In this document: positions 7,299 through 60,318 of the stretch, one piece after another
Layout of the letters: every line of letters begins with the position of its first letter
Numbering within the stretch: position 1 is the first letter of the stretch
Assembly: GCA_002049455.2 (NCBI GenBank)
Contig: KV918957.1
Coordinates: 1 to 64,000, forward strand
Length of the DNA stretch: 64,000 nucleotides
Reading direction: 5' to 3'
From: Porphyra umbilicalis
Lineage: Eukaryota; Rhodophyta; Bangiophyceae; Bangiales; Bangiaceae
The notes under the pieces: model-generated
What the model was told of the DNA's origin: nothing
The model's database searches: none
Seen by the model: the letters and a program-made list of their open reading frames with translations, nothing else
Translations under genes and position numbers: made by a program

Positions 7299-7383
7299 CT
7301 GCACCAAACGCTGGGATGGTGCAGATCTGACACCATACCACCGGATTATGGTGTCGGATCAACACCATCCCAACATTTGGTGC
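7299..7383. repeat. Hairpin-forming inverted repeat
   Basis: The left arm starts TGCACCAAACGCTGGGATGG and continues to GACACCAT. The right arm mirrors it, starting ATGGTGTCGGATC and ending CATTTGGTGCA. The arms are about 37 bases with a few mismatches and a short loop. This is typical of a miniature inverted-repeat element. If transcribed it would form a long hairpin RNA. Confidence 0.6.
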
Positions 7384-7516
7384 AGATAATGCACTATAAG
7401 AGCACACCCAACAACGTCTTCCCCAAGTTCGAATACGCTGACGTGTCAGAAACGTGTCTCGTAAATGCCCCACGTGCCTGAATTTCAGCTCTTGCGGATA
7501 GGGAGGGTCCCACAGC

Positions 7517-8499
7517 TAGGGTTGTGCATCACGCCCCTTTTTGGGTGGCGGGGTGGGCAATGCACGCCTAATCACGCCCTTCTGCACGCCCCCAACATTG
7601 GCACGCCCCTCTTCACGCCCTTAATGTAGCCCCCATGTTTTGACACTTACTTGATAGGCGATTCAAAGTACCCAATATTCTTGCAATTTGGATGCTTCAA
7701 AGGACCACAAAATTGCCAGAAAACACGCGATACACTCTCTTGGCCTATGCCACTCTGCGTCAAAGATGCATTGCAGCATCACGGAACGTCGGCTCGCCTG
7801 GCCTCCACCGGCTGCCCCACCGCCCGCAGTCGCACCCATCTCACCGCGCACAAAGCCAGAGCAGATGGTCATCAAATCAATCTCGGTCATGACCGCGGGG
7901 GCGTCTTCGTCGCCGGGACGACCAACGTCCTGTCCAGGGACGCCGGCGCCAGCCGTGGCGCATCGGGCGACCTCCTCGTTCAGGAGGCGCGTAGCTCGCC
8001 GCCGGCGCCCCCTTCATCACTGCCGTCGGTCTGGTCGTGGCTGGCTCGCGATGCGTCGCATTCAACGTCCTCATTGGCGCCCGTGTCGAGGAGCCCCTCC
8101 GCGTCCTCCCTGGCTGATGACAGCAGGTGGTCGTTGCTGTGCCCATCCCGCACAGATGGCGCCCGCGCATCATGGCGTAGAGCACCTTGTTTGTGGGCAC
8201 ACGACGGAAAAATGGTCCCCACGCCTCATGGCGTCGAGCACCTTGTTTGTGGACGCTCGACGGAGCAATATGACACAGCGACCTGAAAAAAAAACGAAGG
8301 TGGCTCGGAACTGCACCGAAACATATTCGGTGGACTGGCGCACCAAGAGCGCATTTGAAATTATGTATTTTTTTTTCAAGCACGCCCCAACCAGGCCCCT
8401 TAAATTCTGGGTGTGCAGGGCGTGACACGCCCACAACACGTGAAATTGCACGCCCCAGGCGTGCAATTTAGCACGCCCCGGGCGTGTTGCACAACGCTA
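7517..8499. mobile_element. hAT-type non-autonomous element, copy 1 (983 bp)
   Basis: The left end is TAGGGTTGTGCATCACGCCC. The right end is its inverted counterpart, GGGCGTGTTGCACAACGCTA. The flanking 8-bp words are CCCACAGC (7509-7516) and CCTACAGC (8500-8507), a 7/8 match. An 8-bp duplication with these ends is the hAT signature. CACGCCC words are scattered near both ends, as subterminal motifs are in hAT elements. I see no transposase inside, so it would depend on a partner elsewhere. It is roughly 90-95% identical by eye to the copy at 22789. Confidence 0.8.
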
Positions 8500-9164: not shown

Positions 9165-11111
9165 ATGGGCGATCCACTCGACGTGTCTGCGGATGCGATG
9201 GTGGCGGACCCCGTCGACGGCGAAGTTGCCAACGCGGTGGTGGCCCACATGCAGGCGCTGTGGCGCTATCGTCGTCGCATCCGCCGGTCGCGGCTTGGCC
9301 GGCGGCGGTACATTGGGTCGGTGCGTGGCCACCGGCCGACCAAGCACCATGATTTTCGATCAGGTTTGCGAGCTATTTTGAGGGACTATTTTGGATAGGA
9401 CGGCTCCCCCCCCGTGTACGACGAGGCGGACTTTGAGAGACGGTTCCGTGTGCCCCTGTCAGTGTTTTTGCGTATCTACCACACCGTGAAGGGCCGCCCC
9501 TTCTTTGCGCAACGCATAAACGCGACGGGCAGACCGCAGGCACACCCCTTGCGAAAGGTGGTGGCTGCTTTCCGAGTGATTGCTTACGGAGAGGCGCCCG
9601 ATCGAACTGATGAACACGTTCGTTTGTTCGCATCGACCATTGCTATATCTGTTCGAGAGCTTCTACGTTTTATTGTGGATGACTTTTGACCGGCTTATTT
9701 GCGTCCGCCCACCCCGGCCGAGCTGGAGCGTATTCTGGAGCGCAATGCGCAGCGGGGATTGCCTGGGTGTATGGAATCGCTGGACTGCAGCCATTTGGAC
9801 TGAGCGAACTGCCCCAAGGCGTTTGCCGGAATCTACCAGAATCGGCACGGCAAACGCTCTGTGGTAATGGAAACTGATTGTGATGAGGACCTATGGATAT
9901 GGCATTTATTTGTCGGTTGCCCTGGTTCTCAGAATGACCTCAATGTTATGCATGCTTCCCCTCTGTATTTGTCTATGACGGGAGGGGAGTGGCCGCCTCG
10001 TACGTGTTCATACACAGTCAACGGCACCACCCGCACGCTCTTGTATAATCTGGTTAATGGAAATTTCCCTCCCTTTGCATTTTTCGTTTCTCCGTTCCCC
10101 GATCCCACCACTGAAGTTGAGACTACATTCAACCGGCTCCAAGAAGCTTTGAGGAAAGACGTGGAACGGCTATATGCCGTTCTATCTGCACGCTACCACA
10201 TTGCTTTACACCCCGCACGGCACGTCACCGTCAAGACAATGGTCACTGTCGCGAAGGCAGTGGCCATCTTACAAAATATGGTGACGGAGAAGCGACGCGA
10301 TGGGTACGTATCACGCACTCGAATGGCCGCCGCTGCCCAGTTGGCGGCCGGCGGCAGCGGAGGCGGAGACGCAGTTGGTGGCGGAGCCGAGGGCGTGGGG
10401 AACGGGGCTGTTGAGACCCCGGCCGCGGCCGGTGATGCGGCCGGTGGTGCGGCCGGCGACGGGGTTGGTGAGGGTGGCGGTGGTGGGAAGGGTTTCACTC
10501 CTAATGGTGGTGCTCCCGCCGCCGGTGTTGGTGCAGCCGGCGGCGGAGCTGGCGGTGGTGGGGGTGGTGGGACGGGGTTGATGCCTGATGGTGGCGGTCC
10601 CACCGCCGGTGTTGGTGCAGCCCGCGGCGGAGCTGGCCATGGTGGGGGCGGTGTGACGGGGTTGATGCCTGATGGTGGCGGCCCCGCCGCCGGTTTTGGT
10701 GTAGCCGGCGGCGGAGCTGGTGGTGATGGAGGTGGTGGGACGGGGTTGATGCCTGATGGTGGTGGTCCCGCCGCCGGTGTTGGTGTAGCCGGCGTCGGAG
10801 CTGCGGGTGGTGGGGGCGGTGGGACGGGCCTGACGGCAGATGGAGGCAGCCACGCCGCCGGCGGCGGTGCGGCCGGCGGCAGTCCGCAGAGCAATGCGAA
10901 TATTCCGGGGGGTGGCGACGGGCCGCCGGCGGGTGTGGCCGCCCCTGTCATCGCGCCGGCCGGCGAGCTTCCTGCCGGAAGTTTTGGTCACGCGATGAAC
11001 GCTTGGGGGAAGGCATGGGACGAGGAGGAGCACGAGCGCCTGAGGCATGACCTTGCTGAACACGTGTGGGTGGAAAGAAGTACGCTTCTTGCGCCCTACG
11101 TGGGGGTATAA
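9165..11111 (+). pseudogene. PIF/Harbinger transposase (Plant_tran type), three in-frame stops
   Basis: From the ATG at 9165 (MGDPLDVSADAM) one frame runs to a stop at 11111, interrupted by TAG at 9396 and TGA at 9687 and 9801. The protein reads through these positions with no change of frame or family similarity. Features in order: an N-terminal helical region (VYDEADFERRFRVPLSVFLR), the first catalytic Asp in MESLDCSHLD, the second in GSQNDLNVM, the catalytic Glu in KDVERLYAVLSARY, then a roughly 220-residue Gly/Ala-rich insert with repeats such as GTGLMPDGGGPAAGVGVAGG. It closes with EEHERLRHDLAEHVW, the usual C-terminal Harbinger motif. The 9801 TGA falls where the family has Trp. The triad survives, so the copy is young or only lightly decayed. 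Confidence 0.88.
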
Positions 11112-11159
11112 AAGGTTTTTTTTTTCCCCGGTGCGCAGGGTTTTTTTTTCCTTCGATAC

Positions 11160-13070
11160 TGTCGTCAGGAGCGGATCTTTCAGAAATTGATCCGTCCCGT
11201 CAGCGGCCTTGGCAGCGGCAAAGGCGGTGTCTCTTGTGCCGGCGGCCTCCCCGCCGGCAGTACAGGAGCGGGTGGCGGGACTGGAGCACCCTGCCGCAGG
11301 CACTAGATGGGCAAGCGGCGGATCCTGCAATGGTTGTGACAGACCCGCCGCCGGCGTTGATGAGACCGGCGGCGGGCGTGTGGGGCCGTGCGAGGAGGTG
11401 GCTGTCTGCGCTGGCGTTCATCTGAGCGGCGGTGGCGCTGCATGTCGGGGGGGCTGGTGTACAGGGTCGACGACTCAGTGTGCCTGCCCCGCCGCCGGCG
11501 CTGGCGAGACCGGCGGCGCACGTGTCAGGCGGGCATGGGAATTGGAGGAGTACCGCCGGCGTCAGTATCGCCGGCTGCGGCACTGCGTGTGGGGGGTGGC
11601 GGGCGTGCAAGGGACGCAACTAGCTCCGACAGGGCCGCCGCCGGAGGTGACGAGACCGGCAGCGGGCTTTTCGGGCGGAGAGGGGCGCTGGTGTGTTGCC
11701 GCCTGCGATTGTGCGGCCGGCGGCGGCCATTTGGCGCGGCGGGTTGCCGCCGGCGTCGGTATGGCCGGCTGCAGCTCTGCGCGTTGGGGGCGGCGGGGGC
11801 AAGGGAGGCGTCCATTTGCTACTGCTCCGTCGCCAGTGTCGGAAAAACCAGCGGCGCGTGCTTGAAGCGGGCATTGTACGGGGCGGGTTTCCGCCGGCGT
11901 CTGTGTGGCCGGCGGCACCTGTGCGTGTCGGGGGGGGCAGCAGGCAAGGGAGGCGCTCACGTGTTTCTGTTCCGCCGCCGGCGTCGGCAAGACCGGTGGC
12001 GCGTGCCTGAAGCGGGCATCGTGCGGGGCGGGTGGCCGCCGGCGTCTCTGTGGCCGGCGGCACCGGGGTGTGTCGGGGGGGGCAGCATGCAAGAGAGGCG
12101 CTCATGTGTTACTGTTCTGCCGCCGGCGTCGGCAAGACCGCCGGCGCGTGCTTGAAGCGGGCATCGTGCGGGGCGGGTTGCCGCCGGCGTCTGTCTGGCC
12201 GGCGGCGGCTGTGCGTGTATGAGGAAGGCGTGGGCAAGGGAGGCGTTTACTCGTTTCTGTTCCGCCGCCGGCGTCAGCAAGACTAGCGGCGCGTTGCCGC
12301 CTGCGTCTGTGTGGCCGGCGGGTATTGTGCAATTTTTGGGGGCCGGCGGGCAAGAGAGGCGTTTGCTCGTTTCTGTTCCACCGCCGGCGTCGGCGAGACC
12401 GGCTTCGCGTGCTCTGGGCGGGCATCGTGCGGGGCGGGTTTCCGCTGGTGTTCGTGTGGCCGACGGCGCCTCTGCGGGCATGAGGGGGCCGTGGGCATGA
12501 GAGGCGTTTACTCGTTTCTGTTCCTCCGCCGGCGTCGCCAAGAACGGCGCCGCGTGCTTAGGGCGGGCATCGTGCGGGGCGGGTTGCCACCGGCGTCTGT
12601 GTTGCCGGCGGCACCTGTGCGTTTCGGGGAAGGCGATGGTCAAGGGGAGCGTGTACCTGTTCCTGTTCCGCAGCCGGCGTCGGCAAGACCGGCGGCGCGT
12701 GCTCGGGGCGGGCATTGTTCGGGGCGGGTTGCTGCCAGCATCTGTGTGGCCGGCGGCGCCTGTGCGTGTTTGGGGCGGCGGCGGGTATTGGAAGCGTTCA
12801 CTTGTTTCTGTTCCTCCTCCGGTATCGGCAAGACCGGCGACGCGTACTCGATGCCGGCATCGGTCAGGGCGGGTTGCCGCCGACGTGGGTATGGCCGGGG
12901 TCGGCTCAGCGTGTTCGGGGGTCGGGCGGGCGAGGGAGGGGAAGAAAGGTGGGTTGCCCGTCGCCGTCGTTGGCGAGACCGGCGCAGATGTTTGGTGCGC
13001 GGAGGAGACCGGGTGTGTTTGTGTGTTGCCGCCGGAGTTCGTGCGCCAACATGTGCGGGGGGTGTAGCGC
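11160..13070. repeat. Block of ~145-bp GC-rich tandem repeats
   Basis: A motif GGGCATCGTGCGGGGCGGGT recurs with variants near 11869, 12014, 12159, 12419, 12564, 12711 and 12856, giving a period of about 145 bp with one shortened unit. Each unit also carries CCGCCGGCGTCGGCAAGACC and a CGTTTACTCGTTTCTGTTCC-like segment. More diverged units extend left to about 11200. The period is not a multiple of three, so long frames open on both strands without meaning. The block separates the transposase from the Myb-like gene. Confidence 0.8.
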
Positions 13071-13247
13071 CCGTCGGAGGTGTTTGTGCTAGGATCACTT
13101 CAGTGGCCGGAAGTGCAGGGGATCCCAAGATGTGTTGCACATTTTTTGTAGGATGCGCGGTGCACAGAAGTAAGAAAAAATGCATTGCCCAACGGAGAAA
13201 AAAAAACCTTTGGCACGCTACAGAACAAAGCATATACATCTCAAACA

Positions 13248-14573
13248 CTACAGGGACTCATAATGGTCATCGTCCCCACCGGACTCCTCGACAGCACAGC
13301 TGGCGTCGTCCGCTGCCTTGTTGTTGTGCATGGGCACCACGTACACCTCATCGTCGTCTTCCAAGGTAGTCGACGCGGCAGCAAGTGCCGCCGCCGCCTT
13401 CGCCTGCTTCGTCACCTGGGACCGAGCGCCACGGCTCGGCGTGCCTCTGCCGGTGGTCTTGGGAACAGGAGCTGTCGTCGCAGGCGCCGCCGGCGTGTTG
13501 TCCCCAGATTCTGGCGGCGATTGCACCTCGGACTCGACTGCCGCCGGCTTGCTGCCGACCGGCGGCGGCTGATGCACCTCCGACAGGGCCGCCGGTGCGG
13601 TCGACGACCCCGCGTCCGTCGCCAAGGCGGCGGCCGTCCCCGCCGGACCCGACAACATCGCCAGCTGAGACAAGGAAAAGTCCATCCCAGCCGCAGGCAT
13701 CAGCTTGCGCGCGTGCATCTTGCGGAAGGCAATCGCCTCCGGGGTGTCGCGCATCTCAGCGGTGTTGAAATACGCCACAGTTGTTCGCTCCATCGTCGCC
13801 CGGGCCAGCGCCAGCAGAGCGTCCGAGCTGTACTTGATCGTCCGAGACGCGCCGATGTCTTCACTCATCTCCCGCTTGGCTGCCTTGGAGCCGCGCGGAC
13901 ATGACAAGAAGGCACCCGCCGCCGGCGGCCCGTTATCTTCCTCGTCCGAGTCGCTCGGGGAGGCACGGCCGCCGGCAGACGCGCTGGAAGAGCCGGCGCC
14001 GCCGTCTGCGGCGGCGGCCCCGGCGGCGCCACTAAGCTTGTCAACGTGGCGCAAGATCCGCCAACACGGTACCCACGGGCTGGTCGCTTGCTTCGCCTTC
14101 CTTTTGGTTGTCTTTACCTTCGCCTTGTCAGACACCCGATCGTTCCGCATCGCCTCGTAAAAGCAGAGCCCGCAAAAGCGCGCCACAGCGGCGCGAATCA
14201 GGTCCTTGTCGCTCGGGTTTCCAGTCAGCGACAGCCGCTTAACGGCCAGGTAGTGGGAGCCAAACTCGCTCACCCCCCTCCGGATCTTGTCCCACTGCTT
14301 CTGCACCCCCCCGACACCGCGCTCAGTGCGCCGTCGCGCGCCAGGGCGACCGGCCAGTAAGCGCTTCCATTCTGCGACGACCTCCTCCCAAAATGTTGTC
14401 CCAGTCTGGTCCGAACCAATCACAGCGTCCAGAGATGTAGAAAGATATGCCCTGCTGAGGGCCACCCACTCTTCGTCCGTCCAGCCAAGCCCAGTCCCCA
14501 TGGAAGCCGGCGCGTAGGTGGCGGCAAGCAGGTCGGTGCCCTCGCCGCCATCCGCAGGTGGGGAAGGTGGCAT
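13248..14573 (-). CDS. Harbinger Myb/SANT-like DNA-binding partner, intact
   Basis: An uninterrupted 441-residue frame starts at an ATG (14573) in a Pro-rich leader. A Myb/SANT-like trihelix begins at about residue 31 with GWTDEEWVALSRAYLST and includes FWEEVVAEWKRL and VQKQWDKIRRGVSEF. After a Lys-rich stretch comes WVPCWRILRHVDKL, then an acidic Ser/Asp/Glu linker and CPRGSKAAKRE. This order matches NAM-associated Myb-like proteins encoded by plant PIF/Harbinger elements. Those help the transposase enter the nucleus and bind the element ends. The C-terminus is Ala/Pro-rich with a final acidic tail. Unlike the neighbouring transposase, the frame has no breaks. Confidence 0.85.
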   Translation of the reverse strand: MPPSPPADGGEGTDLLAATYAPASMGTGLGWTDEEWVALSRAYLSTSLDAVIGSDQTGTTFWEEVVAEWKRLLAGRPGARRRTERGVGGVQKQWDKIRRGVSEFGSHYLAVKRLSLTGNPSDKDLIRAAVARFCGLCFYEAMRNDRVSDKAKVKTTKRKAKQATSPWVPCWRILRHVDKLSGAAGAAAADGGAGSSSASAGGRASPSDSDEEDNGPPAAGAFLSCPRGSKAAKREMSEDIGASRTIKYSSDALLALARATMERTTVAYFNTAEMRDTPEAIAFRKMHARKLMPAAGMDFSLSQLAMLSGPAGTAAALATDAGSSTAPAALSEVHQPPPVGSKPAAVESEVQSPPESGDNTPAAPATTAPVPKTTGRGTPSRGARSQVTKQAKAAAALAAASTTLEDDDEVYVVPMHNNKAADDASCAVEESGGDDDHYESL

Positions 14574-14596
14574 GAACCACCCGCCCCGAAGACCAC

Positions 14597-16213
14597 CTAG
14601 ACGGAAGGACCACCGCCGCCGGCAGGTGATGCGCCGCCGCCGGTTGGCGGTGGTCGCGTAGCAGGCGGCGGCACTTGCACGTGCCTGCAGGGCGCGTCGC
14701 CGTCGGTATCGGCGGCCGGTGATGCGCCGCCGCCGGCTAGCAGCGATTGGGCAGCAGCCGGAGGCGCTGGCCCATCACAGCCGGGCTCGTCGCCGCCAGT
14801 TCCGGCGGCCAGTGCCGCGTCGCCGCCGGATCGAGACAGTCCGCCGCCGACAGCGAGTGGGGACGGAGCAGCAGCCAGCGGCCCTTGTAGGACGGTGCGG
14901 GGCGCGTTGCCGCCGGAACCGGCGGCCGGGGACGCGCCGCCGAGGGCACGAAGCGATGTGCTGCCGCCGGCAAGCGGGGATGTAGCAGCTGCCGGCGGCA
15001 CTTGTCCGTCGGTGCGGCGAGCTTCGCCGCTGGTGCCGGCGGCTGGTGATACGCCACCGCCGGCTTGCACTGGATTGGCAGCAGCCGGCGGCACTTGTCT
15101 GTTCGCGTGGGGCGCAGTGTCGCCGGAACCGGCAGCAGGTGACGCGTCGCCGCCGGCGCGAAGCGATCCGCCGCCGCCGGCAAGTGGAGATGGCTGCCAA
15201 TTGTCGCAGATCGGCCCAAAGTCGCCGGCCTGGGCGGGTCCTCCACCCGGCGGCCCCCAGTTGATGTGGGGTCCTGCGTGGCCGCCGGCTGGACGAAATG
15301 CGTGACCTGCTGGCGGCCCCTTGTTGTCTTGGCGTGAAGCGTGGACGCCGGCTTCACGACTGGCTTGGCCACCCGGCGGCCACAAATCCTTGCGAAGTGG
15401 CCCAAAGCCGCCGGGCTGATTGGGACACTGCCCGCCCGGCGGCACCCAGTTCCACCTCGGTGAAGGCTGGCGATATGGAGGGAAGCCACCGCCACCGTAT
15501 CCGCCGGGCTCTTGAGATCCTTGACCTTGACAGCCCTGCGGCGCCCACACGTTGCGGTGCGGAGATCCGTCCCTGTCCCGCGTGTCCCGTCCACGGCCGC
15601 CGTACTCGTAGTCCCGTTGGAACGGCGGGTCCCACTGGCCACCGGCTTGGGACGACCGACCAGCGGGCGACGCGCAGCCACAGCGGCGACGAGAAACTCG
15701 ACAGCCGCCCGTATCGCACCGCCGACCGCCGTGTCCGCCATTGCCGTCAGGCGGGTGCTGCGAACGGCCGCCGGCTTGGTTGTCCTGCCAGGGAGCCGGC
15801 GGCACCCACTCGTCACGCGGCGGCAGATACGGCCGTCCCACTCCCCTGCCAAATTGTTCGCCACCTTATTTAGGATCGGTGCTTGGTCGCGGCCCTCAGC
15901 TGCCGCGCGACGGCAGTGACGACCGTCCCGCCCACCCGGCACAACTGCCGCAGCCCTGGTTCAATGCAAGGTTGGGCGGCGGCACCCAGGCGCAGCCGGC
16001 TACAGGCGGTCCTTCTCCAGCCGGCGGGGCAGAGATACAAGAGCCAGGAGGCGCGGGCCCCCCGCATGGTGGGGCCGACGCTGAGCACGGTGGGCAGCCC
16101 GCGAGATGGCAAGAGCACGTGCAACGCGCGAGCACCGCCAGCCGCTCTTGATGACGACGACGCTGGTCGTGGCGACGCTCCGTGTCGCGCTCCCGGTCCG
16201 GCTTGCGGGTCAT
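14597..16213 (-). pseudogene. Third Harbinger-element protein: basic Cys/His head, disordered repeat tail
   Basis: An ATG at 16213 opens a frame whose head is highly basic (RKPDRERDTERRHDQRRR) and is followed by LAVLARCTCSCHLAGCPPC, a compact Cys/His motif. Two in-frame stops lie between 15841 and 15896 (TGA, then TAA). The same frame then runs uninterrupted to 14597 as a Gly/Pro/Gln/Trp-rich tail (e.g. NWGPPGGGPAQAG), then 30-38-residue GGASPAAGSGG-type repeats. In the copy at 35.2-36.4 kb the two stop positions are Trp and Gln, so the frame was once continuous. Shared between the copies are the basic head, C-x-C-x2-H-x6-C, PPRDEW and WQDNQAGGR. I recognise no family. A nucleic-acid-binding or condensate-forming role is only a guess. 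Confidence 0.5.
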
Positions 16214-17533
16214 GATCGGAAAGGGGGGGGGGGAAGAAGGCTGGATTTTGAAGGCCGGGGGTGGAGACGGGGACAAGGGGGGAGCGGTGACCAGAGCCAC
16301 GGGCGCGCCGCCGGTGCTCGCGGGACGCCGGCGGCGTGTTGGTTGCAACAGGCGCGCGCGGGAGGAAAAAAGGACAGAATCAGCACGAGTGAGGCGGGGG
16401 GAGGGGGACGAGCCGCCGGCGACTCCCACTCAGGCACGCCGGCGGCAAGCACGTGATCAGTGTCGCGCAGGCGGTCGTTGGGCTAGAGGGCGGGAGGGCG
16501 GAGTGCCCCCGCAAGCTGCGCCAGTGCTCCACCGTTCCCGGGGGACCCCTCGTGCGCGCAAGACGAGGGGGCGGGACAGGTTGCAGGCCCGCAGCGGGCC
16601 CGAAACACACGAGGTGTCTTTGAGGGCGCCCGAGGTGCGACACGAACCCCGGGTGACGCCTCCCCAGCCGCAATGCACACCGCCGGCGGTGACCCGCGCG
16701 CCCTCCACCGACCCGCTCCCAATCCGCAGTGGTCACGGGGTGGCCCCGAATGACCGGTTGGGCGGGACAGGGGCACATAGGACACAGGAAGCCACACAAT
16801 TTGATCACGGGCCGGCTGACCCCTCGCCGCATCGAATCCGCCTCCCATCTGAGTTTTTCTTAACAATTCCGCGAGCCAATGACGAGGCTCCATACGACGA
16901 CAAACTGTTCAATATTTCCCCATGTCAAGTAAACGAGTCGTGAGACTGGATGCGGGATTGGACCAGTTTTTTGGCGTCGGACCAGAAACACTGCCCCAAT
17001 GGAGTTTTTCACCAGCCCGCCTGCAGGGCCTGCCGACGCCTGGTCAAACGAATGGCGTCGGCCACCGTTGCTTCTGGAAGCACCCGAAAGGCGCTTCGGG
17101 ACGGACCGCGCGGTCCACGACTCGGGCTTTTCGCGACAGCGCATCGCAGCACGCACCCGTTGAGGGAGCCTCGACCAACGCCAGCATCTCAGTTGTGTCC
17201 CGTGAGACTCGGTTTTGACAGAAGTGTGCCAAGTTTCTTCCGCCGTGCTGACTCTGGACGCGTGAGGCGACCAGTTCGTCCGATGTTCACGATGCGTTTC
17301 TCTCCATTTCACAGGTGTGTGCCAAAAGTGTCTTTCATTGACGCGATTTGGAAGGTTCCACTGGGATCATAGACACTTTGTCTCACGATCTCTGCCGCAC
17401 GGCATCCTTTTCGTCCGGTGTGTCTTGGCATCGAGACTGCTTCACGATATGCACGAACTTCGACCACTTGGGGACAAACGTTGCTGGGAGCGCATCCCCC
17501 ATCTTGCTGCTCCCATCTGGTGATCATGTAGCC
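15200..17533. repeat. Duplicated segment, copy A (partner 35080-37589)
   Basis: Roughly 2.3 kb shares about 80-90% identity by eye with 35080-37589 in the same orientation. It covers the head of the third gene and a shared flank with no recognised protein. Identity is best at 16990-17340 and stops abruptly at 17533. Frames in the 16.8-17.3 kb part are alike in both copies on both strands, so they do not by themselves show coding. Confidence 0.75.
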
Positions 17534-22788: not shown

Positions 22789-23807
22789 TAGGGTTGTGCA
22801 TCACGCCCCTTTTTGGGTGACGGGGTGGGCGATGCACGCCTAATCACGCCCTTCTGCACGCCCCCAACGTCGGCACGCCCCTCTCACGCCCCTAATGTAG
22901 CCCCCATGTTTTGATGTTTACTTGATAGGCGATTCAAAATACCCAATACTCTTGCAATCCAGATGGTTCAAAGGACCACAAAATTGCCAGAAAACATGGA
23001 GGAAACAGCTGCATGCGATACACTCTCTTGGCCTGTGCCACTCTGCGTCAACATATATACTTTGCAGCATCACGGGACGTCGGCTCGCCTGACCTCCACC
23101 GGCTGCCCCACCGCCCGCAGTCGCACCCATCTCACCGCGCCCAAAGCCAGAGCAGATGGTCATCAAATCATTCTCGGTCATGGCCGCGGGGGTGTCCTCG
23201 TCGCCGGGACGACCAACGTCCTGTCCAAGGACGCCGGCGCCAGCCGTGGCGCATCGGGCGACCTTCTCTTTCAGGAGGCGCGTAGCTCGCCGCCGGCGCC
23301 CTCTCCATCACTGCCGTCGGCCTGGTCGTTGCCGGCGCGCGATGCGTCGCATTCATCGTCCTCATTGGCGCGCGTGTCGAGGAGCCCCACTGCGTCCTCC
23401 CAGGCTGATGACAGCAGGTGGCCGTTGCTGTGCCCATCCCGCACAGATGGCGCCCGCGCATCATGGCGTCGAGCACCTTGATGCGCGGGCGCTCTCGTTT
23501 GTGGGCACACGACGGAAAAATGGTCCCCACGCCTCATAGCGTCAAGCACCTTGTTTGTGGACGCTCGACGGAGCAGTAAGACACCGCGCCCTGAAAATGT
23601 AACGAAGGTGGTTCGCAACTGCACCGAAAAATATTTGGTGGACTGGCGCCCCAAGAGCGCATTTGAAATGATGTACTTTTTTGCCAAGCACGCCCCAATC
23701 ACGCCCCTAAATTTCTGGGCGTGCAGGGCGTGACACGCCCAAAACACGTGAAATTGCACGCCCCAGGCGAGCAGTTTAGCACGCCCCGGGCGTGTTGCAC
23801 AACCCTA
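22789..23807. mobile_element. hAT-type non-autonomous element, copy 2 (1019 bp)
   Basis: It starts TAGGGTTGTGCATCACGCCC and ends GGGCGTGTTGCACAACCCTA, perfect hAT-like inverted ends. Flanking octamers are CTGAACAT (22781-22788) and CTGGACAT (23808-23815), a 7/8 match. It shares its whole length with copy 1 at 7517 and has small insertions, including about 17 bp near 22995 and about 30 bp near 23481. No transposase-like frame is conserved between the copies. Confidence 0.82.
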
Positions 23808-23821
23808 CTGGACATTGCTGT

Positions 23822-35079: not shown

Positions 35080-37589
35080 TAAAGCCTGGCGGTGGCAGCG
35101 TACACAGGCGCGCGGAGTGGCCGGGGCCGGCCCCTAGTTCTCTTAGCTTGCTGCGTGGCCGCCGGATTGTCGACTTCCTTGACCTCCCATCGGTCCTCAG
35201 TGGTCGTGGCGCGCCGCGTGGCCGCCGTATTGATGACTTCCTTGACCTCCCATCGGCCCCCAGTGGTCGTTGCGCGCCGCGTGGCCGCCGTATTGACGAC
35301 TTGCTTGACCTCCTGGCGGCCCCCAGTTGTCTTGGCGCGCCGCGTGGCCGCCAGATGCACGACTTGCTTGACCTCCCGGCGGCCCCCAGTTGTCGTGGCC
35401 TGCAGCGTGGCCGCCGGCTTGACGACTTGCTTGGCCACCCGGCGGCCACCGGTCCTGGATCAGTGGCCCAAAGCTGCCGGGCTGATGGGGTCGCGGCCCG
35501 CCCGGCGGCACCCAGTTCCGCCTCGGCGAAGGCTGGCGATTGGGGTGGAAGCCACCACCGCCGTGGCCACCGGGCTGTCGATCTCATTGACCTTGACAGT
35601 CCGGCGGCGCTCACACGTTGCGGCGGGGAGATCCATCCCTGTCTCGCGAGACCCGTCCCCGGCCGTCGTACTCGTGGTTCGGTTGGAACGGCGGCTCCCA
35701 GTGGACGCCGGCTTGAGAACACCGACCAGCCGGCGACGCCGAGCCGCAGCGGCGAGGAGACACTCGACGGCCGCTCGAATCCCACCCCCGACCGCCGCGT
35801 CCGCCGCTTCTGTCGGACGGTCGCTCCTACCGGCCGCCGGCTTGATTGTCCTGCCAGGGAGCCGACGGCACCCACTCGTCACGCGGCGGCAGCGACGCCC
35901 GTCCCGCTCCCCCGCCCAAATGTCCGCCACGTTGGTTGGGTTCAATCCTTGGTCCCGGGCCCCAGCTGCCGCGCGTTGGCGTGGACGACCGTCCCGCCCC
36001 CCTGGCCCAATTGCCGCAGCCCTGGTTCGGTGTAGCGTTGCGCGGCGGCGCCCAGGCGCCGCCGCCTACCGGCGGTCCGTGGCCAGTCGGCGGCGCACAG
36101 CTACCATAAACCGGAAGAGCGGGCCCCACACGTGCTTGATCCGACGTTGAACACGGTGGGTAGCCCACTATATGGAAAAAGCAGTTGCACCGCGCGAGCA
36201 CTGCGAGCCGCTCCCGATAACGACGACGCTGATCGCGGAGACGCTCCGTGTCGCGCTTCCGGTCCGGCGTACGGGTTATGCTCCGAAAGGGGGGGGGGAA
36301 GCAGGACGGCTTTTGAAGGCCGGGGGGGAGACGGGGACAAGGGGGGAGCGGTGACCAGAGCCCACGGGTGCGCCGCCGGAGATCGCGGTACACCGGCGAC
36401 GTTTCGGTTGCAACAGGCGCGCGCGGGAGACAAGAAAGAGAGAATCAGCACGAGTGGGGCAGGAGAAGGGAGACGAGCCGCCGGCGTCTCCCACTCAGGC
36501 ACGCCGGCGGCCAGCACGTGATTGGTGTCGCGCTGGCGGTCGTTGGGGAGAGAGGGCCGGTGGGCGGCGCGCCCCCGCAAGCTGCTCCAGTGCTCGACCG
36601 TGCCCGGGGGACCTCGTGCCCACTGGACGATGGGGCGGGGCAGGGCGAAGGGCGCAGCGGGCCCGAAGCACACGCGGTGTCTTCGAGGGCGCCCGAGGTG
36701 TGACACGAACCCCGGATGACGCCTCCCCAGCCGCAATGCACACTGCCAGCGGTGGCGAGCCCGCCCTCCACGCACGTCCTCCCAATCCGCAGTGGGCACG
36801 GGGTGGCCCCAGATGACCGGTTAGGCGGAAGGGGGGCACACAGGACACAGGAAGCAGCAAAATCTGATCACGGGCCGGCCGGCCCCTCGCCGCATCGGAT
36901 TCACCTCCCACCTGAGGTTTTCTGAAACAACCCCGCGAGCCAATGACAAGGCTCCATACGACGACAAACGTTTCTAATTTTCCCCTTGTCAAGCAAACAA
37001 ATCGTGAGACTGGTTGCGGGATCGGACCAGTTTTCTGGCGTCGAACCAGCGACACTTCCCCAATGGAGTTTTGTACCAGCCCGCCTGCAGGGCCTGCCGA
37101 CGTCTGGTCAAACGAATGGCGTCGGCCACCGTTGCTTCTGGAAGCACCCGAAAGGCGGCTCGGGACGGACCGCGCGGTCCTCAACTCGGGCCTGTCGCGA
37201 CAGCGTATCGCACCACGCACCCGTTCAGGGGACCTCGAACGACGCCAGCACCTCTGTTGTGTCCCGTGAGACTCGGGTCTGAGACCAGTGTGACAAGTTT
37301 CTCCAGCCGTACTGACTCTGGACGCGAGGGGCGACCAGTTCGTCCGATGTTCACGATGCGTGTCTCTCCATTTCAAAGGTGTGTGCCAGAAGTGTCCTTT
37401 ATTGACGCGATTTGAAAGGTTCCACTGGGATCATAGACTCATGATCTGTTCCGCACGGCATCCTTTTCGTCCGGTGTGCCTTGGCATCGAGACTGCTTCA
37501 TTATTTGCACGAATTTCGAACTCTTCGGGACGAACGTTGCTGGGCGCGCATCTCCCATCTTGCTTTCCCTATCTAGTGATCATGTAGCC
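35080..37589. repeat. Duplicated segment, copy B of the Harbinger right part
   Basis: It matches 15200-17533 in the same orientation, including the third-gene head and the roughly 1.1-kb flank ending at TGATCATGTAGCC. It lacks the transposase and the Myb-like gene, so it is a truncated or internally deleted relative. Its repeats are 60-bp units, compared with the longer, more mixed units of copy A. Confidence 0.75.
35197..36393 (-). pseudogene. Third Harbinger-element protein, copy B
   Basis: The frame from 36393 carries the basic head (RKRDTERLRDQRRRYRER), the motif LAVLARCNCFFHIVGYPPC and continues through GSWGPGPR and PPRDEWVPSAPWQDNQAGGR to a stop at 35827. The remaining parts occur in other frames. 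These include a tail at 35197-35511 made of 20-residue units (DNWGPPGGQASRQYGGHAAR) repeated about five times. The Met that starts copy A is Ile (ATA) here. So this copy is broken, but at different places from copy A. Family unknown. Confidence 0.5.
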
Positions 37590-39460
37590 CTTGTTTCTGG
37601 TAACTCCAGAAGGACAATTTAGAAGTCAGATCTTGGGGGAGACGTTGTTTGGTGTGCTCTTGTCGTGTGTTCACGCGCAAGCGCGTTTTTCTTGCAAAAA
37701 GCTCCGAAACCCCCTCCGTAAGGCCCTCCGCGAAGACGTCGATTTGTGGAAAAACCGTCGGCGATCTGCGGGAGAGGCCGCAAGAGTTGGTGGCTTACAT
37801 ACTACGGGGTGACCCACAATTTGGCGCAGAGAAATTCTTCAGCTGTCAACAGCGACATGGCACCAATCGCCATGACGGCTCAGGGTCTCCATGATCCAAT
37901 TTTAATCAATATCGACCGCGTCACAGCATGTGTGGCTGTTGTTGGCCAGCTGCACAAGCTGCTGACTGCTAGGAGATTGTCAATGGCTACGGCGTAAGCG
38001 GCATGGACGTTCTACAGCAAGGCCTCCTCCGTAAAATGCTGTCGTGGCAACTATTTGCGACGCACAGGGAAGCGGCGACCGGCCTGAGGGAAGGCTATAG
38101 TCTTGCTCAACCCCTCGAGATGGTTCGGATGGTAAAAAGGTGATGAACCGGACGACGCGCTCTTCCGTGGCTGTTGGGTTTGGTGTGCGAGGGTGGCGGT
38201 GAGGGTGCTAGTGTTTTTCACACTGTGTAGGTATAGCCTCTGTAGCAGTTTCAGTCCATAGTCTGTTCTGCTCTTTAGACTGTCCATCTGTACCTTGATT
38301 TGCTTCTCGCACACCCATGGCAAGAACTGATCCGTGTATGGGTGAGAACAGTAATTTTCTGGATTATTGGGGGATACAGTACCACCGTGCTTGCTGCAGT
38401 GACAAAAACAAAGCGCCAGACACTTTGCCTGTCGTGGCACCACCACAACGGCTCGGCGCCCAGTGTCAGTGACGATTGCTAGCGTCATGAGGTTGCTGGC
38501 TGTGGCGCCTCTCGTCGGAAACCGGCGCCACCAGCATTGCCGGTGGAAAGCTCGGAAGGTGTGGCTATCACCGCGTCGCTCCCGCCATGGCCGCCATTGG
38601 GGTATTATACAAAAGAGGTGGGCGTGCAGCGAGGAGCTTTGCCCGCGTGGCGAGCTGACGGCGATCCTGTGCCCACCACTGACTTGATTCGTCAAGTTGA
38701 TGTACGGACTGGCGGACGGTGACGAAACCGGGCAGGTGCCAGAAAAGAGCGCGCCGCCCCCACCAACGCTACTGCCCCCGCCCCCGCCACCAGCAATCCA
38801 GCCGCAACGGGCGCTGCCACCGCGGATCATGACCGACGTGACGCCCCCGCCACTACCCCCGCCACAAGAGAAAGCGCTCACGCCGGGGATCGAACCAACA
38901 TCATTCGTTGTCTCGTATCTGAAGCGGGAGGCGCGTGCGCTGTAGACCGGCCACGAGGAGTTTTTGTTGCAGGAACTCTGGCTACAGTCGTTCCACAAAA
39001 ACCTAGCACTCGGCCGACATCAAAAGTGCGTCCCACATGCTCTTGATTTCTTGCAAGCGCGGCTTAATTAGAGTGACGTGTCCCAGCAAGAGTCTCACAG
39101 CAACCTCTGCGCTCAATAGATTTTGGGTGCTCCATCACACACGGAGACGCATGACACCGAAGTGCTCTCCAGGGCCTTCACTGGCCCCCCACGTCGGGGG
39201 GCCAGGCCCATCGCCCAATGTGGCTGTTCCGCCAGTGACGCGCGTGCCAGGCGTCACACGTCCCGTGTCGATGATCAGAGCGCGGACCCGGCCCCGTCGC
39301 CCACTTCTGCTGACAACCCAGTGCGAGCAGGACAGAGACCACTAGATCTCGTCCTCCGCGCCATTTCGAACCGCTGGCAAGGCAATTGCAAAATCATCGG
39401 GAATCGCTGCATCTTTTGACCCTATCTTGATCCCTGAACGATGGCCCGACGGTCCAGATC
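37590..39460. other. No supported gene
   Basis: Short frames only. A Pro-rich segment near 38740-38860 and a perfect short inverted repeat, CTGGCCCCCCACGT with its complement, near 39180-39205 are the only features of note. Confidence 0.4.
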
Positions 39461-39464
39461 ACAG

Positions 39465-40466
39465 GCCCGTTCTGAGTCGGTCCAGATCACATGATCAAAT
39501 TTGTGACGATCAGAACGACGCAGATGTCGACCGGACGCCGGCGTCGTCGATGCGGATCACGTCGCCGCCACGATCCGCAGCCTTCCCACCACCCCCAACC
39601 GCCGACGCCGCCGTCGCTGCGGCTGCGGCCGCCACGTCCCCCCGACCCCCCCCCTTGCTGCCCCGCCCCCCCGCCCCCCGCCCCCCTCTATTCCGATGAC
39701 GTCTGTTTCTTCTCTCGTCTTGCATTCGTTTCTATTGCTTTCTTTTCCTTCGGTCATCTGCCTTGTTCTTTGGGCTGTCCCTCTTAGTCGTAGAAATAAA
39801 CACGTGCTGCTCCTGTTCTTTCTCGTTTTGGTCTTTCTTCTGAGCTGCGGGACTGAGTTTGTGGTCGCTGCCTTATATTGCACCTCTTTGCTGTCGGCAT
39901 CAGTTCTTCTTGCCCTTCCACAGTGCCTAAAATCCGTTTTCAAGTTCTGAAGGGACAAGCTGCATCGAAAACAGAGGGCACAAACCCACCGCCGTAACAT
40001 TTATTCACCCTTCAAATAGAAAAAAAACACTGCGAGGGAGCCACCAGCGGTGATCAGCAGAAACAAGGGACATCGACCAGGGCGGCAGAGGCAGAGGCGA
40101 CAAGAAAAAGCAACAACATGTATTTATCTCAGCGACACAGAAAGACAGCCCAAAGAACAAGGCAGATGACCGAAAGAAAAGAAAGCAATAGAAACGAATG
40201 CAAGACGAGAGGAGAAACAGAATTCATCGGAACAGGGGAGGGGGGGGCGGGGGCGGGGGGGGAGCGGGGCAGCAAGAGGGGGGGTGGGGGGGACGCGGCG
40301 GCCGCAGCCGCGGCGACGGCGGCGTCGACGGTGAGGGGTGGTGGGGAGGCTGCGGATCGCGGCGGCGACGTGGTCCGCATCGACGACGCCGGCGTCCGGT
40401 CGACATCTGCGTTCTGATCGTGACAAATTGGATCATGTGACCTCGACCGACCCAGAACGGGCCTGT
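39465..40466. mobile_element. ~1-kb foldback element with ~350-bp inverted arms
   Basis: The left arm (about 39465-39825) and right arm (about 40095-40466) are inverted copies. Examples are CAGGCCCGTTCTG against CAGAACGGGCCTG at the outer ends, a GTCGACCGGACGCCGGCGTC block, and a GTCATCTGCCTTGTTCTTTG block nearer the centre. Identity is about 85-90% by eye. The central roughly 270 bp is unique, with no gene. This fits a foldback element or large hairpin MITE. Confidence 0.8.
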
Positions 40467-42000: not shown

Positions 42001-45000
42001 GCTCACTGCGCTCGAAACCGGATAATACCTTGCCGCTCGTGGAGTGGGCGATCTTGTTGCAAACCTAAACGGAGAGGCGACGTCACCTTGGCGAAGGCGG
42101 TGGTCGGCGGCACGCTGTCCGTCAGCGCTGCGCCCACAGGAAGCGGTAGTACAGCTCCCAGGCGGCGTCGTCTGCCATGGCGAGGGCATCCACGTACGCG
42201 GCGGACACGTCGTCCGTCGACTGGTCTTTCATGCCCATCAGCTGGTCGCACGCGTCCAGCTCCCCCCCAATTGTGCGGTAGCCCATCGCCGCGCCCGCGC
42301 GGAGGGAGTGGCCGGCGTACATGCCGCCGCCCGGCAAGTGCACATCCAACAGGTAGAGGCCTCGCGCATGCACGCGGTCGCCACCTCCGTCGGCAGCGCC
42401 CGCAGATCTCCGACGGGGGAGAAGCAGGGTTGGTAGTCGTCCGCCGTCTCCATGCCGACGGCCGACATGAGCATATGCACAAGCCCAAACGGGTCGTCGA
42501 GCTTGCCGCCACCGCGCCGCGGCACGTTGATGAAGATGCGCTCGCAATCTGTCCTCGCGCCTTGCTTTTAGTCAATTATCTGCACCTTGATGTTGTCACC
42601 CGTGAGGGTGGCGTCTTAACGGCGGGGGCCACCGTGCCGCGCTCGAAGATGAAGCCCAGGTAGCACGCGATGGTCACGGTCATGGCTGGCATGTGGGTGT
42701 ACCTGCTGGCCTGGAAAAAAAACCACAAAGGCCATTTACTTGTTGGCGTAGTTGCCCTTAGTCGACTCGGCCAGCACGAGGCTCAGCAGCTGCGCGGCAG
42801 TCTTACCGCCGGCGCCGGCGCCGAATTGGTGGTCGCCGAGGACGCGGCACGCCCGCGTTCATGACGTGGCGGCGGCCGTCGGCCCCCGGCTATGAACTGG
42901 AGCGCGCACACCGTCCAGTGCGGCCGCCGCGCCGGCTCGGCCGCCGCCCCGTGCCGGAAGACGCCGGCCGACCGGGGGAGGTAGCAAACCTCTTGGGCCA
43001 GCTGCAGCGCCGGCTGCCATCACGGCTGAGCCCGCCAGACCGGCACGAGGACGGTCGCCGCCGCCCGCTGCGCATTGATCAGCCGCAGCACCAGCGGGAT
43101 GAGGGAAAACGGAGGGTTGGCCCAGTTGTTGTCGTCGACCAATGACTGGGACATCCCGCCGACCGCTTCGGTCGTTGGGTCGCGGTAGCGGGAGTTGGAC
43201 CGCGGCAGCTGCGCCGTCGTGGCTGACGCGAAGCGGTGCACGGTGTGGGCCCGTACAGGCCGTCCAGAGGTAAGAAGAAGCGCCGCTTCAGCGACCATTC
43301 CGTCCTGTCCTCGTCCCTGCTCTGCGCGTCCGCCCACGCGTTCTCCGCCGTCGGGATCCATTCCCCGTCGAGGGCGACCGACAGGCGACGCGCGACGGCA
43401 TGAAGCCGCCGCAGCTCGGGGACGAGGGCGGGGGAGCGAGAGGAGTGGCCGGTGATGACCACCAATGCCACCTGCGAGTCGATGAAGAGCCGCACGACGG
43501 AGCCCGCCGGCAGCTTATCCTCAATGCTGAGAGCGACAGGGTGACCGCCAGCACCTCCTTGGCGTTGATGTGCTTTGGCATGTCCGCGGGGCCAAAGCGG
43601 CCACGGGCCTCGTATGTGGCGCCATCGATGGTGAGGCCGCCTCCCCAGCCGGCGCCACAGGCGTCGGTGTGGAGCGTCGCGGACGCGGGCGGGCGCCACA
43701 GCAGACGGCCGAACTCCTGCCCCGATCGCAAGCTGGCACAAAATCTCAAATCTCGAATAGATTGGTGAGACAATCGTCGATCGTGGCGCGACGGTCGATC
43801 GGACCGATGGATTTAATCATCGATCCGATCGTCAGACGATCGATCCATTTGACCATTCGAAATTGACCCGCGACTTTGAGGTCGCCGTATATTGCCCGGG
43901 TGTACAATTGCGCCGCGGGGATTTCAAGCTTGGTCGACACCGCCGGGTCGGCAATCCGCTGCAGTTCCTTGAGCCGATCGAACTGGCGGTTCTCGCCCTC
44001 TAAGGAGATTAGCGCCGTGGCCGCCCCGGTCATCTTGGTGACCCGCTCCGCCGGCAGCGTCAGCCGGTTGCCCGCTGTGTCGATGGTGGCGGCCCCCCTT
44101 CTCGGGGTGCAGCTGCAACCCAAGCGTGGCGTACATCCGCGCCACTGTCGCAAAGCCAGTGGCCGCGTCGGCCTTACTGCTCGGCCGGGCGCTTGGTGCG
44201 GCCGCGCCGTGGTCGCCGACGAAGCCAATGAGTGTGAAGCCCAGTCCGCGCAAGTGCGCGAGCACTGGGCGCATCACCTTTGTCCATGCCTACGGGGCGA
44301 TGAAGAGGCCAAACGGCATGGTGATGGCCTCGTACACCTCGCCATTGATGGCGAAGTTGAGGTAGGTCCGATCGTCTGGATGTATATAAACGTGATGAAA
44401 GACGTCCTTTATATCCCATGAGATGAGGTGATCGCACAGCAGGAGCGACGCTACAAACTCGGGCAGCGCCTCGTACCTAAACGACGTTTCCTCCAGCTGC
44501 TCGTTCACGTCCCTGAGATCGATCGTCAGCCTCGTCTTGGGGCGCACGTGCGAGACGAACGCAGGCAACACGCACCGCGCCGCCGCGCGCTCCGCCCCGT
44601 CCAGCTTCCGGATGAAGCCCGACGTCTGCCACCGCTTCAGCTCCTCGACCACGAAGGTGCGGTTCCCGTCGGGCACCGGGTACGCCCTCGCTTGCGGACG
44701 CGGCCGAAGGCAGGGGTCCTCCCAGGGCAGCTTCATGCCACACCACAGGAGACGGAGGAACCAACGTGGCGCGTCAATGTTACGCCACGCTTCCTCCGCC
44801 TCCCGCGCCCGCGCCGCCAGCGGCTTTCTTGGCGGCGCAGCACCGCCCGCCTTGGCGCCCGCGGTCCTGATGATCGCCCGCCGGTCGCCGGCCGACAGCG
44901 CGGTCACACCGATCGTGGCCAGCCGCCCCTAAACGAGCGCAGCTGCCGACAGCAGTCGCCACCTCGACGCTGGACGGGGCGAGGGAGGGGGAAGGGACCC

Positions 45001-45468: not shown

Positions 45469-46865
45469 CTAGGCCCCATACATTTCCCAAATCTCGGCGA
45501 CGAGCGCCTCCCTGGCGTTCCAGGCTCGGTCGTACGCCGCCCCGCCCGCGGGCCCGTCGATGAATTGGATGTTGGCGTGCGTTGCCTGCGCGTCCACAAC
45601 AGCCTCCCACAGGTCATCCTGTTCGACGAGAAAATTGTGGAGGGACACGCAGGCCTCCACGATGGAGGATACCAGCTCCGTCTCGGCACTGACCACGTCG
45701 TGCAGCACGCGCCACCGCCCCTTCAACAAACCAAACGCCTGCTCCACCACCGCACGGGCGGACGACAGGACCCTGTTGTACAACTTGAGGGCATCGTTGA
45801 GTTGCTCCGACAGGTAGGGCTTCAAAAGCCACTCTTCAAGAGCAAAGCCCCCGTCTGCCAGCAACCGCGACCGCGCTGCCAGCGTCCGCCGCCCAGCCGT
45901 CCCCTGTCGCCTATACCATCGGCTGTCTTTAAACGCACGGCTGTCAGCCGTGCTGCCCGGAACCCCCGACCGACACCACAGAAAGCGCTTCTTGGCGTCG
46001 CAAGTAGCCATGAGGGTGACCCCGTAAAAGCATTTTCGCGTGTTGAACGCGACCTTGACGGCACGGGGAGGGGTCAGAATTCGAATGAGAGTACCATCGA
46101 GGGCGCCAACGACGCCGGCGATGGGGCACGCGTGGATCTCCAACCAGTCGTCCGCGAGCGCCTGCTGCTCGCCCGTCGTCGTCGGGACGTCGGGGCGGGG
46201 CAAGGCGTCGAGGAGGGCGTCGACAACGTCTCGGAGGATGCCCGAAAACGTCGACGACGGCACGTCCGCGCCATCGCTGCATGAGAACTGGCTGCCGCCG
46301 TGCGCCAGCCAGTACAAGACCAGCATCAGCCGCACCCGTGCGGGAACGTTGCGCGGAGCCCCACCGACAGTGGGCCGATCCAGCGCCATGCGAGGCCCGA
46401 CGAGGACGAGGAGGTGGCGAAAGGAAGTCCGTGTCATCCTGAGCCGACGTTTAAAATATCTGCTGCTCCTCCACATGCGGCGCGCCCACAGCTGTCCGTT
46501 GTCTTGGTAGTAGTCCGGGCGCCGCCCCATCCGGCCGTCAAATTTCAGTGCCGCTGCCACCAACGTAAACCACTCGTCTTCCCCCGCCCAACCCCCACCG
46601 ATGGGCTGTCGCACATCCCCCCCCCCCCCCCCCCCCCCCCCCCGTCCGCCTGCATGCGGGCGGCCATCAGACGCTCTGGATCGGCCCTTTCTGCGGCATC
46701 TTCGTCGTCCACAAAGTCGGAAAACAAGTCCGAGAGCAACTCGGCGCGCACGGTGGCGGCGGTGGAGAAGGCGTCACGCGGCTGCAAAGCCCGCAGCTCC
46801 TCACTGAGAGCGGCGCACGGGTCAAAGCTCTGCAGCGTGCAGGTCAGGCCCGCCAAAAGGTCCAT
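45469..46865 (-). pseudogene. PIF/Harbinger (HARBI1-type) transposase with a 27-C run
   Basis: The catalytic part is one open frame, about 380 residues, ending at 45469. It shows the first Asp in GVVGALDGTLIRI, the second in LLADGGFALEEWLLKPY and the Glu in VVEQAFGLLKGRWRVLHD. The N-terminal part starts at an ATG (46865, MDLLAGLTCTLQSFDP) in another frame. The switch falls at a 27-base C run (46617-46643), a poly-Gly tract in the protein. The run length therefore sets whether the gene is readable, and sequencing error there is a real possibility. No Myb-like partner gene is adjacent. The element differs in sequence from the 9.2-kb Harbinger. Confidence 0.85.
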
Positions 46866-48386: not shown

Positions 48387-48491
48387 GGGTACCGTATTTC
48401 TACTTCACAGCCGAAACCTATGCGTACGCGTATATACGCGTATATACGCGTTACGCATAGGTTTCGGCTGTGAAGTAGAAATACGGTACCC
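48387..48491. repeat. Perfect 40-bp inverted repeat with 25-bp loop
   Basis: Arms at 48387-48426 and 48452-48491 match at every base by direct comparison (left starts GGGTACCGTATTTCTACTTC). The loop is built of CGCGTATATA units. It lies just outside the 2.2-kb unit with long inverted arms. Confidence 0.9.
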
Positions 48492-48559: not shown

Positions 48560-48900
48560 GGTATATACCCGAAAAATGTACGCGGGAATACACTTGAGGA
48601 AAAGTACTGTACTCTTGAAGACCCCTGGTTTGCATGGCACGCGCGCCTGGCCATGTTGCCGACATTGTTCGCCTCATACGCCTTGCCGGACGGACCGGAC
48701 TACCCCAGTTTTGACATCTACTCTTTGCGACCGCCATCCGCACGCCGACCCCTGGTGTTCGTACGCCGTGGTGCCAGCGCTGCTGTTTGGATTGTGACAT
48801 CTTCATTGTGCACCATGGCTCCCCCAGGCGCGTCGGCCACGTCGGTTGCGGCCACCGACGCGTTTGCAGCGATCCAGCGGGTGCGTGTGGGTGTCGTCCG
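48560..48900. repeat. Left arm of a long inverted repeat (partner 50434-50770)
   Basis: Starting at GGTATATACCCGAAAAA, this arm matches 50434-50770 in inverted orientation almost base for base. I saw one 5-base indel and a few differences near the outer end. The near-identity points to a recent duplication or gene conversion. The arm contains the first exon of the small gene at 48815. Confidence 0.88.
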
Positions 48901-50433: not shown

Positions 50434-50770
50434 CGGACGACACCCACACGCACCCGCTGGATCGCTGCAAACGCGTCGGTGGCCGCAACCGACGTGGCCG
50501 ACGCGCCTGGGGGAGCCATGGTGCACAATGAAGATGTCACAATCCAAACAGCAGCGCTGGCACCACGGCGTACGAACACCAGGGGTCGGCGTGCGGATGG
50601 CGGTCGCAAAGAGTAGATGTCAAAACTGGGGTAGTCCGGTCCGTCCGGCAAGGCGTATGAGGCGAACAATGTCGGCAACATGGCCAGGCGCGCGTGCCAT
50701 GCAAACCAGGGGTCTTCAAGAGTACTTTTCCTCAAGTGTATTCGCGCGTACTTTTTTTCGGGTATATACC
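50434..50770. repeat. Right arm of the long inverted repeat (partner 48560-48900)
   Basis: See 48560. With arms of about 340 bp and a unit of about 2.2 kb, the architecture resembles Mutator-like elements. No 9-bp flanking duplication was seen. Confidence 0.88.
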
Positions 50771-54522: not shown

Positions 54523-54608
54523 AAACGACAATCACTCGAGGCGCTCATGACGCTCGATCGTGGATATCCACGATCGAGCGTCATGAGCGCCTCGAGTGAT
54601 TGTCGTTT
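54523..54608. repeat. Perfect 86-bp palindrome
   Basis: The sequence is self-complementary with no loop about the axis between 54565 and 54566. Each 43-base half reads outward to AAACGACAATCACTCGAGG. I checked each pair to both ends; the next bases outside do not pair. Confidence 0.92.
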
Positions 54609-60202: not shown

Positions 60203-60318
60203 GTCTGTGTGCGAGTGGGGCCAGGATGGCTTCTCTTCGAAAGCATCCAGCGAGTGTGGGGTCAGTGGGTGGTCGGGACAGAGAGATTACAGCGGCCCTT
60301 GCAGCGCTTGGGCTCGAG

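Follow-up and report, generated by a model that had tools for sequence, protein, structure and literature searches.

A decayed PIF/Harbinger transposon of known type with a putative third gene in a contig of the red alga Porphyra umbilicalis

The first 64,000 nucleotides of contig KV918957.1 from Porphyra umbilicalis (assembly GCA_002049455.2, forward strand), which will be referred to here as the window, contain a decayed Harbinger element of known type with a putative third gene. The locus is, in our estimation, fairly likely to be the remains of a once autonomous PIF/Harbinger cut-and-paste transposon of the Plant_tran type (element A) that carried a right arm beyond its two usual genes, and a second locus (copy B) would then be a fragment from the right end of its sister. 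Excluding a nested insertion, element A would have measured about 9 kb, of which some 3 kb would form the right arm, located between the start of the helper gene and the right end of the element. That this arm, with the third open frame in it, belongs to the element is moderately shown by the work described below. The guanine plus cytosine (GC) content of the window, 64.3%, is in line with the 64–68% given for the genomes of Bangiales red algae (PMC7423979), and its transposon content has a eukaryotic character.

The transposase of element A occupies positions 9165–11111 of the plus strand, with an ATG at 9165. In the Pfam analysis, where matches were judged against the curated cutoffs, the region 9804–11108 matched both Plant_tran (PF04827; 9.4e-38) and DDE_Tnp_4 (PF13359; 4.3e-8) above these cutoffs, and a short in-frame piece at 9690–9800 matched Plant_tran slightly below its cutoff (1.7e-4). 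The frame is interrupted by stop codons at 9396, 9687 and 9801, the last of which is flanked on both sides, in one frame, by matches to Plant_tran. Due to the presence of these matches together with the three in-frame stops, the region 9165–11111 is a pseudogene of the plant-type PIF/Harbinger kind; a transposase of this family, as reported in the preliminary description of this DNA, is indeed present on the plus strand, albeit in a broken form. Of the pieces nearer the start, that at 9399–9686 gave DUF4129 as its sole match (0.0046, below cutoff) and that at 9165–9395 gave no Pfam match. The tail of the protein is glycine-rich and contains 84-bp repeats at 10445–10880. At the presumed position of the second catalytic aspartate, the unaligned sequence reads LVNG where members of the family have ADG, and this residue may thus have been replaced by asparagine. 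With the transposase piece, a PDB search gave eight weak matches, at 0.015 to 0.81, which were attributed to chance; antibody light chains made up six of the eight. The window also contains a second DDE_Tnp_4 transposase, which is unbroken (45472–46773, minus strand; Pfam 5.1e-30) and hardly related to that of element A (best tblastn E 0.084).

Convergent with the transposase is a frame of 441 codons on the minus strand (13251–14573), which is free of stops and stands at the position of the Myb-like helper gene (ORF1). The two are separated by a 145-bp tandem array (11734–12920), the period of which is not a multiple of 3. The 13251–14573 frame is a probable, unconfirmed Myb-like helper. Its tryptophan spacing is reminiscent of Myb/SANT proteins; Pfam did not confirm a Myb domain, and the only Pfam matches of this frame, to NAM-associated (0.001) and DUF2992 (0.12), were both below the cutoffs. 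No relatives of the frame were found in PDB at E up to 1, and a single-sequence fold model of its front part had a mean predicted local distance difference test (pLDDT) score of 44.4, which is too poor for use. Hence, of the Myb-like gene that had been placed beside the transposase, the open helper frame is confirmed but the Myb domain is not.

A third reading frame is found on the same strand as the helper, at 14597–16213 (copy A), with an ATG at 16213 and a stop at 14599–14597. It begins with a basic head (11 lysine or arginine and 6 aspartate or glutamate among 43 residues) containing the motif C-x-C-x2-H-x6-C, and this is followed by a tail rich in tryptophan and Pro-Pro-Gly and then by 93-bp units. 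Copy B of this frame (35128–36279, minus strand) has a head without an ATG and carries a 63-bp tail array at 35153–35447. Past the head, both copies consist of degenerate Trp-Pro-Pro-Gly-rich units, which then give way to the tandem units of 93 bp in A vs 63 bp in B, and the earlier observation that the repeat tails differ between the copies was thus accurate. The frame of copy A contains two stops in 538 codons (at 15898 and 15868). That of copy B, over 384 codons, has six, of which three fall within the region common to A and B. Accordingly, the third minus-strand gene of the preliminary description survives as a reading frame (16213–14597), but not as an intact gene in either copy. Reading of TGA as tryptophan was considered and rejected, as TAA and TAG stops are present too.

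The head motif, which had been reported to recur at 35–36 kb, does so at 36151–36189, and a search of all six frames of the window found it at this place and at 16085–16123 only. In simulated sequence with the dinucleotide make-up of the window, the expectation for this motif was 0.12 per window; at least one occurrence was seen in 6 of 60 simulations and at least two in one of them. As both places sit inside one duplicated block of 2.3 kb (15243–17533 and 35309–37589; 84.6% identity), the recurrence is due to shared descent of the DNA and not to two independent motifs. The part of the right arm past the third frame covers 16214–17533 in A and 36280–37589 in B. The two open pieces of copy A had no match in the Pfam scan, and the first open piece of copy B, the one piece of that copy that was scanned, matched only BRD4_CDT (0.61, below cutoff); no TET/JBP or SET domain was found in any of these pieces. 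No relative of the head was confirmed in a collection of viral contigs or in one of prokaryotic genome contigs, nor was any relative of the helper frame confirmed in the viral collection or in a collection of plasmids, and these results carry little weight as each set is confined to viruses, prokaryotes or plasmids, respectively.

The third region is linked to the transposase by a putative pair of terminal inverted repeats, the scores of which were judged against the maxima obtained with shuffled sequences. The candidate left repeat of element A lies to the left of the transposase, at 7392–7430 (plus strand), and is preceded by TAA if the end of the element is set at 7400. The candidate right repeat lies beside copy B, at 37629–37667 (minus strand), where it starts 40 bases beyond the end of the block at 37589. 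It agrees with the reverse complement of 7392–7430 at 34 of 39 bases, and this inverted match scores 53, whereas shuffled sequences reached at most 28, 31 and 32 in the three comparisons made. With a more permissive scheme the match scores 58 and the best shuffled sequence 34. When the two halves of the motif were sought throughout the window with up to three mismatches, both were present without mismatch at these two sites, and one half was also found, with three mismatches, at 57924. The terminal inverted repeats of PIF/Harbinger elements are about 25–50 bp long and their target duplications measure 3 bp (PMC9179366). Because the match between 7392–7430 and 37629–37667 joins the transposase side of A to the outer, block side of B, the third region is probably, as judged from sequence, part of a Harbinger-family element and constitutes its right arm. 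This link rests on two half elements. The right end of A itself contains, at 17459–17488 and 45 bases inside the edge of the block, a motif resembling the repeat (score 30, shuffle maximum 24). When the left and right sides of A are compared under the more permissive scheme, the score is 41, with 35 as the highest value among the shuffled sequences. Such a motif is also seen, by eye, inside the right end of B; a second, subterminal copy on the left of A was not significant, as its scores of 22 and 25 lie below the 95% point of the shuffled sequences (27).

A number of observations weigh against the locus being such an element with its own right arm. No terminal repeat was found to the right of 17533 and no left terminal repeat was found for copy B; consequently neither element can be closed, nor a target duplication checked on two sides. 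At the place matching the TAA that precedes 7400, the repeat of B is followed by TTG and not by TWA, which is the target duplication of PIF/Harbinger elements. A match to a Myb family was likewise not obtained for the helper frame in the Pfam scan. One could suppose, in view of the missing repeat beyond 17533, that the 2.3 kb block belongs to a repeat family of its own and, in copy A, simply lies next to a Harbinger. That copy B has neither a transposase nor a helper frame of this kind beside it accords with this. We regard this as quite unlikely, since the terminal match ties the transposase side of A to the block side of B and the two sides of A have the weaker motif in common. The heads, which the preliminary description had expected to accompany Harbinger genes, do so in A, whereas B, one of the two copies, is found without them, an outcome which that description had named as adverse to its proposal, but keeps an inferred terminal repeat.

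Evidence that the third frame was a gene under selection is mixed and, as far as can be judged from two sequences, on balance does not demonstrate selection. The comparison involves copies A and B only, both of which are broken. The ratio of nonsynonymous to synonymous divergence (dN/dS), calculated by the NG86 method, is 0.76 (dN 0.20, dS 0.26), and its bootstrap range, 0.56–1.06, includes 1. For the first 45 codons alone the ratio is 0.57, from 23 changes and given without a range, and in the other two minus-strand phases it is 1.23 and 1.18, which leans towards the phase of the third frame. In a second test, the observed changes were redistributed over the sites. Here 55 synonymous changes were seen against 50.6 expected (P 0.25), or 54 against 50.2 with copy B as the reference (P 0.25), and 8 changes involving stops were seen against 6.4 expected. 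Besides this lack of a significant synonymous excess, it counts against a selected minus-strand frame that the best of the six phases is one on the plus strand (60 synonymous changes against 50.9, P 0.053), which speaks against any special status of the minus frame, and that the longest open frame is unremarkable, a frame of 422 codons or more having turned up in 10.5% of 400 simulated sequences (P 0.105). The differences by codon position, 53/55/73, have an apparent lean to the third position. In the tails, the corresponding counts are 80/98/95 for the 93-bp units of copy A, which have no excess at third positions, and 12/9/19 for the 63-bp units of copy B. In the flank at 16870–17370, no phase had a significant synonymous excess on a protein-coding reading (lowest P 0.18).

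The frame has, moreover, diverged more than its flank, with 181 of 971 sites differing in the former vs 157 of 1307 in the latter (P 1.4e-5). Constraint on the flank, or faster mutation of the GC-rich frame, would account for this more readily than adaptive change does, because the silent sites have diverged too. Decay of CpG sites is a possible contributor to the extra divergence, as CpG-context differences are more numerous in the frame (77 of 181) than in the flank (45 of 157), although transitions do not dominate over transversions in the frame (78 to 103) or stand out in the flank (80 to 77). With a synonymous excess that is not significant, a dN/dS range extending up to 1.06, two broken copies and a frame more diverged than its surroundings, the proposal of a selected accessory protein is not upheld. 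A selection test on two broken copies is low in power, and its outcome is a failure to show selection, not a disproof of it.

What the third frame represents can be weighed among three possibilities. The chance is somewhat short of even that it is non-coding, that is, a subterminal or leader region, GC-rich and containing tandem repeats, which is open by virtue of its base make-up and which would act, if at all, in cis. The results of the redistribution test, the breakage of both copies, the absence of a domain match in the pieces of A, and values of dN and dS that both exceed the divergence of the flank are in keeping with this, as are the simulated frame lengths and the presence, in another minus phase of the same strand, of an open frame of 407 codons. 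Three features which hint at past coding are less easily accommodated: all 8 indels between the copies fall in the flank (1307 bases) and none in the frame (971 bases; P 0.012); the two stops in the 538 codons of copy A compare with a median of 8 in simulations (P 0.007, for one frame and before allowing for the choice of frame); and the tail periods of 63 and 93 bp are multiples of 3, unlike that of the 145-bp array. These same features would support a real third gene, encoding a basic, repeat-rich protein that aided transposition or countered silencing and has since decayed in both copies, and Harbingers with a SET or TET/JBP gene have been published (PMC12730594). The selection tests do not show such a gene, however, no intact copy is present in the window and copy B is devoid of a start codon, and we consider this possibility somewhat doubtful.

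It is also conceivable that the third frame is the front part of the helper, joined to it through an intron or a minus-one frameshift in the overlap at 14600–14774. The two frames are both open over this overlap, and 23 bases separate the stop of the third frame (14599–14597) from the ATG of the helper (14573). As the helper frame has an ATG of its own, the two frames occur together in one copy only, and a splice or slippery site would have to be assumed, this appears very unlikely. A broader proposal is that, in one lineage of plant-type Harbingers, a third gene sits immediately upstream of that for the helper, with which it may be connected, and specifies a basic protein that has the Cys/His motif, a rapidly changing tail of Trp-Pro-Pro-Gly repeats and no known domain. 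We consider this proposal unlikely.

Returning to the decayed transposon with a right arm, its parts may be assigned the following roles. In the reconstructed Harbinger3_DR, the ORF1 protein interacts both with the terminal repeats, to which it binds, and with the transposase (PMC2836001); for Ping and Pong, both proteins are required (PMC2836001). By analogy, the helper would attach to the terminal repeats here and recruit the DDE transposase. The minus-strand genes probably had their promoter and binding sites in the outer 1.3 kb of the right arm. The inner 1.6 kb may, we suggest tentatively, once have been translated, either into a basic protein with Trp/Pro/Gly repeats or as an extension at the front of the helper, and the third frame may accordingly have been a repeat-rich nucleic-acid-binding partner, the helper's front part, or nothing at all. 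Because its transposase has three stops, copy A presumably could not move by itself.

Among known systems, the element resembles rice Ping/Pong (PIF/Pong-like plant elements) in its Plant_tran/DDE_Tnp_4 transposase, in a second frame at the helper position and in a putative inverted terminal repeat of tens of bases. It differs from them in its convergent genes, in the glycine-rich tail of the transposase, in the 145-bp array between the genes and in the right arm of 3 kb that holds another open frame, the third. Virtually all of the coding elements characterized at the time of one earlier account carried two genes (PMC2836001). However, the PHISTA elements of rust fungi have TET/JBP and a third protein, and the HarbingerS elements of Phytophthora have SET (PMC12730594); these are alike to the present locus in possessing a further frame beside the transposase, but their TET/JBP and SET genes encode recognizable enzymes, whereas here no domain is matched and selection is unsupported by the tests. 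As Harbingers with added genes are already in print (PMC12730594), the earlier designation of this locus as an undescribed mobile-element system was overstated. Among the literature matches listed, no Harbinger with a third gene in an alga was evident from the titles and the openings of the abstracts. If true, a plant-type element whose third gene lacks any known domain would represent a new variant, and a domain-less, rapidly changing third protein would extend the range of helper genes acquired by transposons, for which two proteins are normally needed.

A nested non-autonomous insertion (7517–8499) that is not part of the Harbinger interrupts the left arm of element A, on the stretch from 7392 to the transposase. 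It has a sister at 22789–23808 that is 89.5% identical, and the ends are TAGGGTTGTGCA. The 8-base flanks are CCCACAGC/CCTACAGC at 7517–8499 and CTGAACAT/CTGGACAT at 22789–23808, with agreement at 7 of 8 positions in each pair, and on the basis of these 8-bp flanks we take both insertions to be of hAT type. The likeness of the locus to hAT non-autonomous elements is limited to this nested insertion, outside the Harbinger. Directly outside the candidate left terminal repeat of A, a hairpin with 39-bp arms (87%) is present at 7299–7385.

Elsewhere in the window, no Rfam match at gathering scores and no tRNA gene was found. An unbroken frame at 57642–58760 (minus strand) matches DDE_3 (Pfam 1.6e-10) and is presumably IS630/Tc1-mariner-like. 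A reverse transcriptase-like frame is present at 44293–44928 (minus strand; RVT_1 1.2e-5, below the Pfam cutoff), and the frame downstream of it at 43079–43816 (minus strand), which has no Pfam match, is reminiscent of the RNase H of DIRS-like elements. Near-perfect palindromes occur at 48387–48491 (105 bp, 98%) and 54523–54608 (86 bp, 100%). Two inverted repeat pairs were also observed, one at 48560–48900 and 50434–50770 (97.7% identical, 1.5 kb between) and the other at 39461–39825 and 40098–40466 (87% identical, 0.3 kb between), as well as a direct duplication at 59833–60204 and 60301–60671 (95% identical). Lastly, positions 1312–1599 comprise a 39-bp tandem array of 7.3 copies with 94% matches, the period of which is a multiple of 3.

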